The notes under the pieces were generated by a model. The model did not search any database. It was not told the DNA's origin and was given only the letters and a program-made list of their open reading frames with translations. From the NCBI GenBank assembly GCA_021821225.1, contig JAKACR010000059.1, positions 1 through 12,065 on the forward strand: DNA of 12,065 nucleotides. Reading direction: 5' to 3'. The position numbers were made by a program, and so were the translations under genes. The stretch is from Bacillota bacterium. Lineage in GTDB: Bacteria > Bacillota > Bacilli > Alicyclobacillales > SLC66. How positions within the stretch are numbered: position 1 is the first letter of the stretch; every line of letters starts with the position of its first letter. Of this stretch, positions 2,121 through 12,065 are shown piece by piece.

Positions 2121-2146
2121 GGGGACATGGGATAAACCCAATTCCG
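2121..2146 (+). repeat. Left-end copy of the GGGGACATG repeat family
   Basis: The sequence begins GGGGACATGGGATAAACC and continues with an AATTCCG segment. It matches the left end of the complete element at 8551 (GGGGACATGTGATAAACC, then AAATTTCGG) apart from a few substitutions. No matching inverted right end is seen before cvpA, so this is a solo end or a remnant. It lies in the zapA-cvpA spacer. Confidence 0.6.
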
Positions 2147-2187
2147 AGCAGACTTCTCGATCACTGCGGCATGGCGGAGATGGGACG

Positions 2188-2784: not shown

Positions 2785-2881
2785 GTGGCATGGGATAAAG
2801 TCCGCTTGTGGTCGGCAGGGGTGTTTGCAGGATAACGGACGCCTGCCGCGAACTGGCCTGAAACGCCGTCGCGGCAGGTGT
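2781..2881 (-). repeat. Right-end half-copy of the GGGGACATG repeat family with its hairpin
   Basis: Bases 2781-2805 match the reverse complement of the right end of the 8551-8672 element at 21 of 25 positions; the last 17 bases, CATGGGATAAAGTCCGC, are identical. About 33 bases further on is a strong hairpin whose inner loop, CTGAAAC, equals the loop of the other element read in the same relative direction. No left end is found, and the holin-like gene begins where it would be expected. I infer an inverted half-element with a different stem. The end-match supplies the stop codon of cvpA. Confidence 0.6.
2839..2881. terminator. Hairpin between convergent cvpA and holin-like gene, possible bidirectional terminator
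   Basis: The arms at 2839-2851 (ACGCCTGCCGCGA) and 2869-2881 (TCGCGGCAGGTGT) pair at 12 of 13 positions. Inside the 17-base loop a further GGC/GCC pair encloses CTGAAAC (2858-2864). It lies in the 109-base gap between the stops of two convergent genes, as a shared terminator would. There is no U-tract on either strand, so Rho-independent termination is uncertain; it may simply be the core of the repeat element. Confidence 0.5.
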
Positions 2882-5776: not shown

Positions 5777-8225
5777 TCACCCGGGTCTGACCGCCGGGTT
5801 TTGGGAGCAGGGCGATCGCGGGGAGCGCGGAGTCGTCCGTATCTGTCAAGGGAGCTCCGCCGCGCGGATCCGTCTGGTCCGGAATGTATTCTCGCTCATC
5901 CTGCGGCGCAAACGGCCGGTCGCGTTCGTCGAGCGGGGCCGGTTGCCTGTCGAGCACGATCTCGCGCCGGATCAGGGATGGCGGCGTCAGTTCGGTGGCG
6001 AGCACGCGCCGGCCATTGACGACCGTAGTGAGCGCGATGCGGTGCAGCCGGCAGACGCTGTGCGGTTCAGATCCGTTGACAAACACGTCCCACTCCGTCT
6101 CTCCCGCGGCATCGCACAAAGGACCCGCCAGTTCACCGGATTTGGTGCAGATTTTCAGTCGGCGGACGGCGGCCGGCGCACTGAAGCGACCGTCGTTTTT
6201 CATGACCGCGGCCTGGAAGATTTCCCGAAACAGGCGCAACGGTCGAGTGCTCTCACGCAGGTGGGAATGGACCGGCAGGGAGTGCGGAATGTCGTATCCC
6301 ACCCACACGCTCGTGGTCATGCGCGGCGTGAAGCCGACGAACCATGCGTCTTTGTTGTCGTCTGTAGTTCCGGTCTTGCCCGCGAGGTCCATCCGGTTGG
6401 CCAGGGGGGCCAGCAGATGTGCCGTACCGTAGGGGCTGGTGATGACGGACTGGAGCATGCGCGTCGTGAGATAGGCGACAGTCGGCGAGAAGACGCGGCG
6501 CAGACGGTGTCGCCCTGTATAGATCACCCTGCCGCCGGAATCTTCAATATGGTCGATCAGCGTCGCCGGGGCGTACAGGCCGTCGCCGGGGAGTGCCGCG
6601 TACGCCTGCGCGAGTTCCAGCGGGCTCACGCCGCCCCGGATGCCGCCGATGGCCAGACCGAGGCTCTGCGCGTCCTCTTGGCCGATCCCGTCAAGTCCGA
6701 GCGACCAGGCGTATTCGGCCGCTGTCCGCGTGCCGAGTTCGCCGAGGACCGTGATGGCCGGACCGTTGAACGATTGCATCAGCGCGTCGCGCACGGTCAT
6801 CAGTCCGTGGAAGTGTCCGTCCCAGTTTTGCGGGAACCAGTCATGTGACGGCGCATTCGGATTATAATAGTGGCGCGGTTCATCGTCGACAATCGAAGCG
6901 GGCATGAGCAATCCTCGCTCCAGCGCGGGCGCGTAGACGATGAGCGGCTTTAAGGTGGACCCGGGCTGTCTTCGCATGACAGTGTGATCCACTTCGTTGC
7001 GGCTGAAATTGCGGCCGCCGCCCAGCGCCAGGATGCGCCGCGTCTGGTTGTCCAGCACCACCACAGCGGCTTCCTCGTCTGCGCCGCGCACGATGTGCGG
7101 TCCCGAACGGTCTATGTAAACATACGACTCCGGCGGAGCAAAGGAATGCGGATCGGCGAGCAAGGCCGTCACACGAGCCTCCAGACGGGGATCGATCGAC
7201 GTGTAGATGCGGTAGCCGCCTGTTTGCAGTTCTTCTCTGGCCTGCCACTCCGGTATGTTGAGAGCCCGCGCGATCAAAGCGGGCGCAATGCGGCTCACCG
7301 CCTCCGCGATGTATGGCGTGCCGCTCTCATACGGCGCGAGCAAAATGGGACTTGTCGCAAGCTCCGAGAGAACAGGTTCGGCGCGTGCGATGCGGTAGTC
7401 CCGCGTGTCGAGCAGACCGATATCCCGCATGCGGGACAGGATCCAGCGCTGGCGCGCAAGCGCGTTTTGCGGATGCCGCCAGGGAGAGAGTGCGGCTGGG
7501 TTGTTCGGCAAAGCCGCAAGCAGCGCCGCCTGGGCGGTCGTCAGGGCGTTCGCGTGCACGCCGAACGTGTGCAGGGCCGCGCTTTCTACGCCGTACACCT
7601 GTACGCCGCGCATGCGCCCGAAATAGAGGGCGTTCATGTACTCAAGCAGGATCTGGTCCTTTGTCTGTCGCCGTTCCAACAGGATGGCGAGGATCATTTC
7701 CTGTATCTTGCGGCGCCATGTCCGCTCCTGGCGCGGGAACATGGCGAGTTTCACCGTCTGTTGCGTGATGGTGGAGGCGCCGCTCCTGATGGCGCGATTC
7801 CGGAGATCGCTCCATGCGGAACGCGCGATCGCGGCGGGATCGATGCCGAAATGACGGTAGAAATCCTTGTCCTCCGCCGCGATCAGCGCGTTTGGCGCGT
7901 TCTTGCCGGCGTCGGCCAGATGGCTGAGCGGTCTTCTGTCGCCTTCGGACGCGAAACGCCCGATCAGGTTGCCCGCGCCGTCAAACACGAGAGAAGCCGC
8001 CGACAGGTTTGTGAATGCCGACAGGTCCAGCGCGGGCAGGCTGCGCGCAAAAGAAGCCAGCGCGCCGAGCGCCCCGCCGAGCGTGAGCGCCAGCATGGTC
8101 ATGGCGGTTGCGAGCATACAGCCTTTCCGGCGCCGGCGGCGCCTGTCTGCGCGTAACCGCCTGCCGCGCACGGGCGGCGGATGGTCCGGGCTATGCGGTT
8201 GCGCGGGTGTGCGGCGCCGTCTCAT
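5748..8225 (-). CDS. Class A (bifunctional) penicillin-binding protein, PBP1A family
   Basis: This is a membrane-anchored peptidoglycan synthase with glycosyltransferase (GT51) and transpeptidase domains acting outside the membrane. With the ATG at 8225 it has 825 residues, a full length. This start has GGGAGGT at 8236-8242, ten bases upstream; the frame stays open to a GTG at 8270 with no comparable support. A very basic cytoplasmic tail (RRRR at 2-5, RRRRRRK near 28-34) precedes one membrane helix at about 37-57. GT51 motifs follow: EDKDFYRHFG (118-127, with the catalytic Glu), GASTITQQ (149-156), RKIQEM, and YMNALYFG. The transpeptidase has the active-site serine in GSTLK (Ser423, Lys426), SFN (485-487) and KTGT (617-620). 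A C-terminal segment with CTKSGELAGPLC resembles that of other Bacillota PBP1A proteins. The 3' end overlaps the end of mutS2 by 29 bases. Which B. subtilis paralogue (ponA, pbpF, pbpG) it matches cannot be decided here. Confidence 0.96.
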   Translation of the reverse strand: MRRRRTPAQPHSPDHPPPVRGRRLRADRRRRRRKGCMLATAMTMLALTLGGALGALASFARSLPALDLSAFTNLSAASLVFDGAGNLIGRFASEGDRRPLSHLADAGKNAPNALIAAEDKDFYRHFGIDPAAIARSAWSDLRNRAIRSGASTITQQTVKLAMFPRQERTWRRKIQEMILAILLERRQTKDQILLEYMNALYFGRMRGVQVYGVESAALHTFGVHANALTTAQAALLAALPNNPAALSPWRHPQNALARQRWILSRMRDIGLLDTRDYRIARAEPVLSELATSPILLAPYESGTPYIAEAVSRIAPALIARALNIPEWQAREELQTGGYRIYTSIDPRLEARVTALLADPHSFAPPESYVYIDRSGPHIVRGADEEAAVVVLDNQTRRILALGGGRNFSRNEVDHTVMRRQPGSTLKPLIVYAPALERGLLMPASIVDDEPRHYYNPNAPSHDWFPQNWDGHFHGLMTVRDALMQSFNGPAITVLGELGTRTAAEYAWSLGLDGIGQEDAQSLGLAIGGIRGGVSPLELAQAYAALPGDGLYAPATLIDHIEDSGGRVIYTGRHRLRRVFSPTVAYLTTRMLQSVITSPYGTAHLLAPLANRMDLAGKTGTTDDNKDAWFVGFTPRMTTSVWVGYDIPHSLPVHSHLRESTRPLRLFREIFQAAVMKNDGRFSAPAAVRRLKICTKSGELAGPLCDAAGETEWDVFVNGSEPHSVCRLHRIALTTVVNGRRVLATELTPPSLIRREIVLDRQPAPLDERDRPFAPQDEREYIPDQTDPRGGAPLTDTDDSALPAIALLPKPGGQTRVITAPPTSRR
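5779..5802 (+). terminator. Probable Rho-independent terminator of mutS2
   Basis: ACCCGG (5779-5784) pairs with CCGGGT (5794-5799) around a nine-base loop, followed by a run of four T (5799-5802). It starts two bases after the mutS2 stop and lies inside the last codons of the convergent PBP gene. The stem is short and the T-run brief, so efficiency is uncertain. Confidence 0.45.
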
Positions 8226-8373: not shown

Positions 8374-8405
8374 CGGACGTTTGGCAATCCCGGACGTTTG
8401 ACAAT
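8374..8405 (+). repeat. Imperfect 17-base tandem duplication spanning the tyrS -35 box
   Basis: CGGACGTTTGGCAAT (8374-8388) is followed by CC and then CGGACGTTTGACAAT (8391-8405), 14 of 15 identical. The second unit contains the TTGACA -35 box of the leader promoter; the first carries TTGGCA at the same place. Confidence 0.6.
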
Positions 8406-8427
8406 GGAGCGATCGACTCGCTACAAT
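8398..8427 (+). promoter_or_regulatory. Sigma-A-type promoter for the tyrS T-box transcript
   Basis: A perfect -35 TTGACA (8398-8403) and a -10 TACAAT (8422-8427) are separated by 18 bases. The predicted start near 8434 places Stem I of the T-box right at the 5' end of the transcript, as expected for this riboswitch class. Confidence 0.8.
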
Positions 8428-8550
8428 AGCGACCAACAGTGGTGTTGAACACCGCCAGTAACCGTCAGCGGGACGGGCAGAGAGCCGGCGCATGGTGCGA
8501 GCCGGTCGGCGCGGACGGCGAATGTACACGGTGGGAGCCAAGCGTCGCCA

Positions 8551-8672
8551 GGGGACATGTGATAAACCAAATTTCGGAAGGCGCACGACGGCACCTATCG
8601 TGTTTGAGGTTTCAGTCAAACACGATAGGTAGGATGAAGGCGCCTGCTGTGCGGACTTTATCCCATGTCCCC
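8551..8672 (+). mobile_element. MITE/REP-like palindromic element within the T-box leader
   Basis: The element starts GGGGACATGTGATAAA (8551-8566) and ends TTTATCCCATGTCCCC (8657-8672), inverted repeats with one mismatch in 16; with flanks, CCA and AGG extend the symmetry. Further pairing is possible inside (CGCAC at 8582 with GTGCG at 8650), and a perfect 15-bp hairpin lies at the centre. It encodes no protein. Similar ends occur at 2121, 2781 and 12020. Such short, non-coding, inverted-ended units are typical of elements moved by a transposase encoded elsewhere (REP/RAYT-like or MITE); which one is unknown. No clear target-site duplication is seen. Confidence 0.72.
8593..8630. repeat. Perfect 15-bp central hairpin of the element
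   Basis: The arm ACCTATCGTGTTTGA (8593-8607) and its exact inverse (8616-8630) flank the eight-base loop GGTTTCAG. There is no T-run after either arm, so it is not an evident terminator. On the minus strand the loop reads CTGAAACC, which shares CTGAAAC with the hairpin loop at 2858-2864. Confidence 0.85.
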
Positions 8673-8777
8673 AGGTTGCCGGCAGGTTGCCGTTATCGAC
8701 CGCATGAGTGGGCCGCGCGGAGGATGTGGGTACATCCTGACAGCCGGGGCGGCCAATGAGGGTGGTACCGCGAGTGA

Positions 8778-8806
8778 ACCTCGTCCCTTTTGGGGGCGGG
8801 GTTTTT
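8778..8806 (+). terminator. T-box leader terminator
   Basis: The arm ACCTCGTCCC (8778-8787) pairs with GGGGCGGGGT (8793-8802) with two G-U pairs, around a TTTTG loop, and is followed by TTTTT (8802-8806). Its 5' arm overlaps the antiterminator partner of the T-box sequence, so the two structures are mutually exclusive. Confidence 0.88.
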
Positions 8807-8855: not shown

Positions 8856-10091
8856 ATGGAAGGAGTGGCACAGGTGTCGGTTGAACAGGAAGTGCGGCGC
8901 CAGCTCGCGGTGATCCGCCGCGGTGTGGTCGAAATCATTCCGGAAGAGGAACTGGTGGACAAACTGCGGCGCAGCATCGCGGAGAACCGGCCGCTCAAGG
9001 TCAAATTGGGGCTTGACCCGACGGCGCCGGACATTCACCTCGGCCACACGGTGGTGCTGGAAAAATTGCGCCAGTTCCAGCAACTCGGCCATGTCGTGCA
9101 ACTGGTGATCGGCGATTTCACGGGACGCATCGGCGACCCCACGGACAAGTCGGAAACGCGCCGCCAGCTTTCGCCCGAGCAGGTGCGGGAGAACGCGCGC
9201 ACGTACCAGGAGCAGATTTTCAAGGTCGTGGACCCGGATAAGACGGAGGTGCGCTTTAACTCGGAGTGGCTCTCGCCGCTGGATTTTGCGGATGTGATCC
9301 GGCTGGCCGCGACGATGACGGTGGCCCGGATGCTTGAGCGCGACGACTTCAAGAAGCGCTTTGCCGCGGGCGCGCCGATCAGCATCCACGAGTTTTTCTA
9401 TCCGCTGATGCAGGGGTACGATTCGGTCGCCCTGGAGACGGACGTGGAACTCGGCGGCACGGACCAAACGTTCAATCTGCTGGCCGGCCGGACGCTGCAA
9501 AAGGAGTTCGGCATGACGCCGCAGGTGGCCGTCACCATGCCGCTCATCGAAGGTCTGGACGGCGTCCGCAAGATGTCCAAGAGCCTGGGCAACTACATCG
9601 GCGTGAGCGAACCGGCAAAAGAGATCTACGGCAAGGCCATGTCCATTCCTGACGCGCTCATGGGCCGCTACTTTGAATTGCTGACGGGCATCCCGGATGA
9701 CGAACTGGAGCGGATGCGGCGGGATCTCGCCGCAGGCGCGCTGCATCCGCGGGATGCTAAGATGCGCCTGGCGCACGTCCTGACGGTGCGGTTTGCCGGC
9801 GTGGCGGAGGCGGACGCCGCACAGGAGGAATTTGTGCGCGTATTTCAAAAGCACGCATTGCCCGAGGACATGCCGGTGCACCGCGTGGACGCCTCGCCTT
9901 TGGGCATTGTGCCATTGCTGGTGGGCGCCGGGCTTGCGCCGAGCAATTCGGAGGCGCGGCGCCTGATTGCGGGCGGCGGGGTCCGCCTTGATGGTCAGGC
10001 GGTCGCAGACCCGGCGCTGGATGTCGTGCCCGCCGACGGCATGGTCGTCCAGGTGGGCAAGCGCCGCTTCGTGCGGCTGTCCGTCCGCTGA
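8856..10091 (+). CDS. tyrS: Tyrosyl-tRNA synthetase (KMSKS type)
   Basis: This class I aminoacyl-tRNA synthetase attaches tyrosine to tRNA-Tyr in the cytoplasm. The 411 residues show the ATP-binding HLGH (61-64, in [11 protein letters not shown]), the tyrosine-site segment [14 protein letters not shown] (198-211), KMSKS (239-243) and a C-terminal S4 RNA-binding domain from about 345 ([18 protein letters not shown]). HLGH plus KMSKS places it with the TyrZ-like branch rather than the branch of B. subtilis TyrS, which has KFGKT; the symbol tyrS follows common usage. The ATG at 8856 has GGGAGGAG (8843-8850) just upstream and is preferred over the in-frame GTG at 8790, which lies within the leader terminator. 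It is controlled by the tyrosine T-box, consistent with the UAC specifier. Confidence 0.97.
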
Positions 10092-12019: not shown

Positions 12020-12065
12020 GGGGACATGTGATAAACAGAATTTTTGCAGGTATTATCACATGTTC
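12020..12065 (+). repeat. Compact copy of the GGGGACATG repeat, cut by the window end
   Basis: The left end GGGGACATGTGATAAAC (12020-12036) is identical to that of the element at 8551. Only 18 bases further on is an inverted copy: ACATGTGATAA (12024-12034) pairs perfectly with TTATCACATGT (12053-12063). It continues TTC at the window edge, so the outer G/C pairs are partly lost or the unit extends further. Confidence 0.65.

Follow-up and report, generated by a model that had tools for sequence, protein, structure and literature searches.

A MITE-like palindromic element within the tyrS T-box leader of a Bacillota bacterium

The tyrosyl-tRNA synthetase gene (tyrS) of a bacterium in the order Alicyclobacillales is preceded by a T-box riboswitch whose interior holds a palindromic segment of 122 nucleotides. 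Our results support the conclusion that this segment, at positions 8551 to 8672 of the window (the whole stretch of 12,065 nucleotides that was analysed), is one copy of a multicopy element. The element is mobile. By structure and mobility it is MITE-like, and we do not claim it as a derivative of a named insertion sequence. We give a probability of roughly 0.78 to the joint reading in which a MITE-like copy entered the T-box linker through an insertion of the IS630/Tc1-mariner type, and in which antitermination of tyrS by uncharged tRNA-Tyr was most likely kept.

The arrangement amounts to a natural insertion experiment, in which a helix of 122 nucleotides lies between the tRNA-contacting halves of one T-box and an empty orthologue is available as a control. 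It makes the tolerable spacing and delay of a transcriptional T-box testable. It also shows that a structured regulatory RNA can be entered by a mobile element in hairpin form, whose own folding may make the insertion tolerable.

Results and discussion

The leader and the element within it

The leader was compared with those of seven relatives, five of them from among the 80 loci of a tyrS search. The nearest is L001, from a metagenome-assembled genome, with 83% protein identity. Its leader has identical promoter hexamers and an identical 18-nucleotide spacer. The Rfam T-box model RF00230 matches positions 8436-8791 of the window with 72.7 bits (E 1.5e-14, model positions 1-219), short of the gathering score of 93, and its alignment skips 134 nucleotides between Stem I and Stem III. 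The empty leader of L001 scores 98.8 bits with the same model (7763-7969).

The original prediction recognized a T-box Stem I with a UAC specifier on the 5' side of the element, and a T-box sequence, antiterminator and terminator on its 3' side. The RF00230 alignment bears out both halves. The specifier fits the downstream synthetase gene, the 3' block is invariant in all eight aligned leaders, and so is CCGTTAT at 8690-8696, after Stem III. A simple terminator scan found no terminator at 8758-8806 (0 found), and the terminator stem is visible in RNA folds. Positions 8709-8757 account for most of the approximately 27 nucleotides by which the leader, element aside, exceeds that of L001, and contain an extra GGATG...CATCC hairpin. 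Elsewhere in the window, a match to Cis90_sRNA at 655-805 (18.9 bits, against a gathering score of 50) was judged to be due to chance.

The element was expected to be a self-contained palindromic unit with inverted ends and a central hairpin, and this proved correct. Its outer ends, GGGGACATGTGATAAA at 8551-8566 and TTTATCCCATGTCCCC at 8657-8672, are complementary at 15 of 16 positions, and a hairpin of 15 bp (ACCTATCGTGTTTGA / TCAAACACGATAGGT) lies at its center. The RNA fold of 8546-8677 has a free energy of -64.8 kcal/mol (z -7.1), a stability equalled in none of 200 shuffles. Recurrence of the ends in the window, from which the repeat nature had been proposed, also held: with up to 3 mismatches, the end motif occurs 5 times against 0.52 expected, a count reached in 1 of 200 shuffles.

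Table 1. Features of the window around the tyrS leader and other traces of the element
Feature	Position	Strand	Evidence or remark
One-sided family remnant upstream of presumed CvpA-like gene	2121..2150	+	exact end GGGACATGGGATAAA
Degenerate family end directly after TAG stop of presumed CvpA-like gene	2785..2805	+	2 mismatches to end motif
Leader promoter, TTGACA-18-TACAAT	8398..8427	+	11/12 matches; 1 found against 0.2 in shuffles
T-box Stem I, UAC (Tyr) specifier at 8525-8527	8436..8539	+	RF00230 alignment; 84/103 identical to L001
Left flank CCAGG	8547..8551	+	CCAGG again at 8671-8675; putative target C-CA-G
Palindromic mobile element (MITE-like), 122 bp	8551..8672	+	inverted ends, hairpin, absence from 7/7 aligned relatives, family
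Stem III hairpin, limits approximate	8681..8691	+	RF00230 alignment
T-box sequence GGGTGGTACCGCG (8760-8772), antiterminator, terminator	8758..8806	+	RF00230; invariant block in 8/8 leaders
tyrS, tyrosyl-tRNA synthetase	8856..10091	+	ORF; best relative 83% identical
Short hairpin copy cut by window end	12020..12065	+	end-motif match

Relatives with an uninterrupted leader

Eight leaders were aligned: that of the window, L001 to L005, and L305 and L307 from two further genomes. The alignment agrees with the expectation that relatives would have leaders lacking the segment yet otherwise collinear. All seven relatives lack 8551-8672 (119-122 of the 122 positions are gapped) and align on both sides of it, although the seven do not count as independent observations, since L005, L305 and L307 are closely related (92-95% in the tyrS region). 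The L001 leader continues uninterrupted across the place of insertion. Stem I, the CCGTTAT stretch and the T-box can be aligned in all eight leaders, and window and L001 are identical at 84/103 positions in Stem I, 30/38 just 3' of the insert and 51/61 in the T-box region.

In the relatives, Stem I and Stem III are separated by approximately 15-20 nucleotides, as judged by eye, and no native Stem II is visible. The segment had been placed where Stem II and linker elements normally are. The position between Stem I and Stem III holds, but the relatives show no native Stem II for the element to replace. From the alignment by eye, the element thus appears to fill the slot that Stem II uses in other T-boxes, and not to have taken the place of a Stem II.

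A family of 122-bp palindromes

The 122-nucleotide block was searched for in 61 genomes, namely G001 (the genome of L001) and those around it, and four of them (G001, G008, G014 and G017) have matches at E<=0.001. For G001, 58 matches are listed at E<=10, many of which are partial or represent the two strands of one copy. The exact 16-nucleotide end is present in 3 of 59 genomes of the order. Exact ends GGGACATGNGATAA occur 26 times in G001, 14 times in G008, 59 times in G017 and not in G014, and a reversed-pattern control gave 0 in all four. A second class of ends, GGGGAGCAGTGATAA, occurs 11 times in G008, 15 times in G014, 51 times in G017 and 0 times in G001. Elements with the end classes GGGGACATGTGATAA and GGGGAGCAGTGATAA (G008, G014 and G017) have the same length of 122 bp, and one element, L240:5955-6076, has one end of each class. 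It belongs to a tandem pair of 122-bp copies (L240:5955-6200) with only TA between them, where one copy seems to have entered the CTAG that flanks its neighbor.

We collected 80 distinct pairs of ends for which both flanking sequences were available, drawn from fetched regions and not from whole genomes. Exactly 122 bp were spanned by 44 of them and 59 bp by 10. By a rough ORF call that places the window copy inside a spurious ORF, 65 of the 80 copies are intergenic. No preference for gene ends was found: 25/80 elements share a TAG stop with an ORF of at least 100 codons, as do 29/130 control CTAG sites (Fisher p 0.19). CTAG itself, the preferred target, is very rare: outside elements, 434 kb of sequence with 58.5% GC (L207-L303 and the window; loci may overlap) contain 130 sites. 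By our own estimate, this is approximately 1/12 of the number expected from base composition, again with fetched loci that may overlap.

As in MITEs, the family combines terminal inverted repeats and short length (122 bp) with many dispersed copies. It is marked by a length that is mostly 122 bp, by compensated stems and by a target resembling CTAG. It belongs to related acid-mine bacteria and is apparently undescribed; among the titles and abstracts listed in our literature matches, no paper on a 122-bp CTAG-targeting repeat or on insertion sequences of Sulfoacidibacillus describes it. As for spread by viruses, nine viral contigs carry the 16-nucleotide end, with no inverted partner seen by eye within approximately 340 nucleotides around each, and were taken as chance matches. 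Spread by plasmids was also set aside, as plasmid matches cover just 18-23% of the query, with E of 1 or worse.

Three further traces of the family lie in the window (Table 1). For the remnant at 2121-2150 and the hairpin copy at the window end, none was seen at the matching place in L001. At the counterpart of 2785-2805, the L001 gene ends in TAA and no element is there. The gene between the two one-sided remnants (2121-2805), neither of which was seen in L001, is one that we take to be CvpA-like. L001 in turn has a complete copy (L001:9465-9586) approximately 235 nucleotides downstream of its tyrS match, in a relative whose T-box is empty.

Target site and mobility

The copies share the flank pattern C-NN-[GGGG...CCYC]-NN-G, and 60 of the 80 pairs have both the leading C and the closing G. 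The flanking dinucleotide is TA on both sides in 29/80 and on one side only in 31/80. The remaining 20 pairs are without TA; 7 have the same dinucleotide on both sides (permutation mean 2.2, p 0.0005) and 13 show no direct match. Of the 20, 4 show an inverted match. We read one-sided TA and non-matching dinucleotides as decay and variant targets.

Two copies have empty counterparts. At an IS200-type locus of G017, the L210 copy stands in a site that reads CCCTA-element-TAGATATC, with TA duplicated within CTAG, and the empty site of L158 reads CCCTAGATATC; in the further empty counterparts L156 and L165 it reads CCCTTGATATC. The second case is the L279 copy, beside an IS630-type gene, for which L316 is the empty relative. 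Here the dinucleotides of the filled site differ (CA and TA), and the empty site has TG. In both cases the filled site, element aside, is 2 bases longer than the empty one. The remaining candidates represent occupied sites or neighboring copies and were not counted as empty.

The empty counterparts and the duplicated TA therefore indicate a MITE-like element. Target duplication and empty sites were found at the level of the family, and the duplication of the window copy itself is imperfect, its left dinucleotide being CA and its right one AG. If the run of C on the right had lost one C, the mismatch would be accounted for, because restoring that C would give CA/CA in a CCAG target.

Consequences for the riboswitch

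We propose that a transposase would target C-NN-G sites, often CTAG, inserting the hairpin at the central dinucleotide and duplicating those two bases. In the present case, the insertion lies in the linker that joins the tRNA-decoding Stem I to the Stem III and antiterminator portion of the tyrS T-box. In the transcript, the element would fold into a rod of its own and would preserve the two working halves, as an extra stem does. The T-box would most likely still antiterminate tyrS on uncharged tRNA-Tyr, possibly with some delay, or an effect of spacing, between codon reading and the terminator decision. Because the promoter, the UAC specifier, Stem III, the T-box and the terminator are all present, we infer that the element is a tolerated extra stem and that the T-box still works.

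The original prediction also called for a comparison of predicted folds with and without the segment. In the ensemble of the full leader, 0.007 pairs are expected between element and core, and energies are additive within 1.9 kcal/mol, so the element is predicted to fold independently. However, by eye, none of the RNAfold structures for the full leader, the excised leader and L001 shows the canonical T-box fold, and core pairing probabilities shift between full and excised leader by a summed difference of 25.5 of approximately 84 pairs. The folding results therefore point to an independent hairpin, not to an intact switch.

It is possible, but unlikely, that the insertion disabled or rewired the T-box, so that tyrS is constitutive, off or less sensitive to tRNA. 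Decoding and decision are now separated by 122 additional nucleotides, the leader has a further expansion of approximately 27 nucleotides before the T-box compared with L001, and the predicted core pairing changes as described. Yet nothing points to decay: identity to L001 is 79-84% across Stem I, the Stem III stretch and the T-box region, and the two leaders have the same promoter hexamers.

The inserting enzyme

A 2-bp TA duplication within CTAG is the behavior of IS630/Tc1-mariner elements. The enzyme that inserted the element was most likely a cut-and-paste transposase of this type, and membership of the element in that group is not claimed. In the available text of PMC2170065, ISY100 of the IS630 family duplicates TA, with a normal TA duplication in 34 of 39 insertions and 2 insertions at AA/TT. 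The same source cites a paper titled for an IS630-associated transposon that prefers TA in CTAG.

No transposase gene with element ends on both sides was found among the matches scanned to PF13358 (9/9), PF13546 (2/2), PF01609 (23/23) and PF00665 (7/7), or among 30 of 55 matches to PF01797 in 20 genomes (in the four carrier genomes, 13 of their 30 such matches), an absence that is weak evidence, as the carrier genomes are fragmented drafts that break at repeats. Three contigs (L216, L249 and L302) stop inside an element. The nine PF13358 (DDE_3) loci, from four genomes, all lack these ends and thus provide no link to IS630 by sequence homology. Several single ends were taken as coincidence. 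L380 and L381 adjoin complete MITEs but have no good end beyond the gene, and L380 has one match with 3 mismatches inside the gene. L391 has an exact end on one side only, which is that of the L279 copy, and L171 and L403 have one end each, with 2 mismatches.

A different mobilizer, an HUH tyrosine transposase (RAYT/TIRYT) acting on a REP-like or REPIN-like element, seems rather improbable. HUH single-strand transposition is not known to make target duplications, whereas 2-bp target duplications are present in this family. Ends on both sides are absent from all 30 PF01797 loci inspected, and the single end at L171, with 2 mismatches, is in a genome free of the family. Most PF01797 frames, at approximately 110-165 amino acids, are IS200-like by size, and the 220-amino-acid frame of G014 adjoins an ORF that, by motif, is presumably TnpB-like. 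What speaks for such an enzyme is the mostly intergenic position of the copies (65/80 by the rough ORF call), which is REP-like, and the similarity of ends: TIRYT ends share GGGGWSAS (available text of PMC3733652), and GGGGACAT fits 7 of the 8 letters. Also, the inspection covered 13 of the 30 Y1_Tnp matches in the carrier genomes.

Conservation of the hairpin

We aligned 42 distinct 122-bp copies, without gaps, as equal length implies. Standard pairs occupy 92.3% of pair cells. Changes on both sides occur in 16 of 47 pairs, against a mean of 7.9 in shuffles, none of 500 of which reaches 16, although the relatedness of the copies inflates this comparison. Structures slid along the alignment, which retain the relatedness but are disadvantaged since the structure was derived from the consensus, give 3-7. 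Given the compensatory changes on both sides, the hairpin itself is therefore conserved. The hairpin of the window copy is intact, and its C-G pair at columns 45/78 is found in no other of the 42 copies.

We consider it doubtful that the element has been retained because it is beneficial, whether by delaying or spacing or by serving as an acquired domain like Stem II. The intact hairpin, including the private C-G pair, and the empty relatives with no visible Stem II are what such retention would lead one to expect, but intact pairing may be inherited from a parent copy, and no element overlaps a known RNA in the 67 further loci scanned. These loci carry element copies or ends and gave 0 overlaps with an Rfam match (E<=0.001), in a scan that could miss an RNA whose score had been lowered by an interrupting element. 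The Rfam matches in these loci are tRNAs, one c-di-AMP riboswitch and one SAM riboswitch; two others, below gathering scores, are to the ylbH leader and Plastid-ycf2. Equally speculative is the stronger form of this idea, that a transposon gave a T-box without Stem II a working domain that tunes the time or distance from codon reading to the aminoacylation decision, such that a switch evolved by domain insertion.

Finally, there is almost no likelihood that the segment represents a native Stem II domain specific to the lineage: it occupies the Stem II slot and forms a stable helix, and a typical T-box such as that of B. subtilis tyrS has a Stem II (available text of PMC7583486), but its absence from seven of seven aligned relatives and the close copies at dozens of other sites in sister genomes, that is, empty leaders and a multicopy family, lead us to reject this explanation.

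Comparison with known systems

With IS630/Tc1-mariner elements and their MITEs, as represented by ISY100 (available text of PMC2170065), the element shares a 2-bp TA duplication, occasional AA/TT sites, a preference for CTAG and terminal inverted repeats. It differs in that no transposase with these ends was found, and the likeness is one of target-site behavior, not of sequence homology. REP, REPIN and TIRYT sequences, as far as described in the available text of PMC3733652, are likewise short palindromes, mostly intergenic, with ends like GGGGWSAS. Unlike these, the element has a target duplication and, by eye, no GTAG/CGTC end tag, and no tyrosine transposase is associated with it among the PF01797 matches inspected (30/55).

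The leader itself shares with tyrS-type T-boxes of RF00230 a Stem I with UAC, Stem III, the T-box, the antiterminator/terminator and a position directly upstream of tyrS. In contrast to that type, its linker from Stem I to Stem III contains a mobile hairpin of 122 nucleotides; the linker of the aligned relatives is short.

Among the literature matches listed, no title or abstract describes another riboswitch, T-box or otherwise, that contains a MITE or transposon. One review, in its available text, deems the formation of riboswitches by MITEs conceivable (PMC10969869). The nearest published case that we found is a BOX element between two T-boxes of the trp leader of Streptococcus pneumoniae, whose authors, in the text available, infer continued function of the riboswitches from RNA-seq data (PMC3049150). 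There, as here, a mobile repeat and T-box riboswitches are joined in a composite leader RNA. The pneumococcal BOX, as presented in that text, sits between two T-boxes, whereas the element of the window lies inside one, between its two tRNA-contacting halves.
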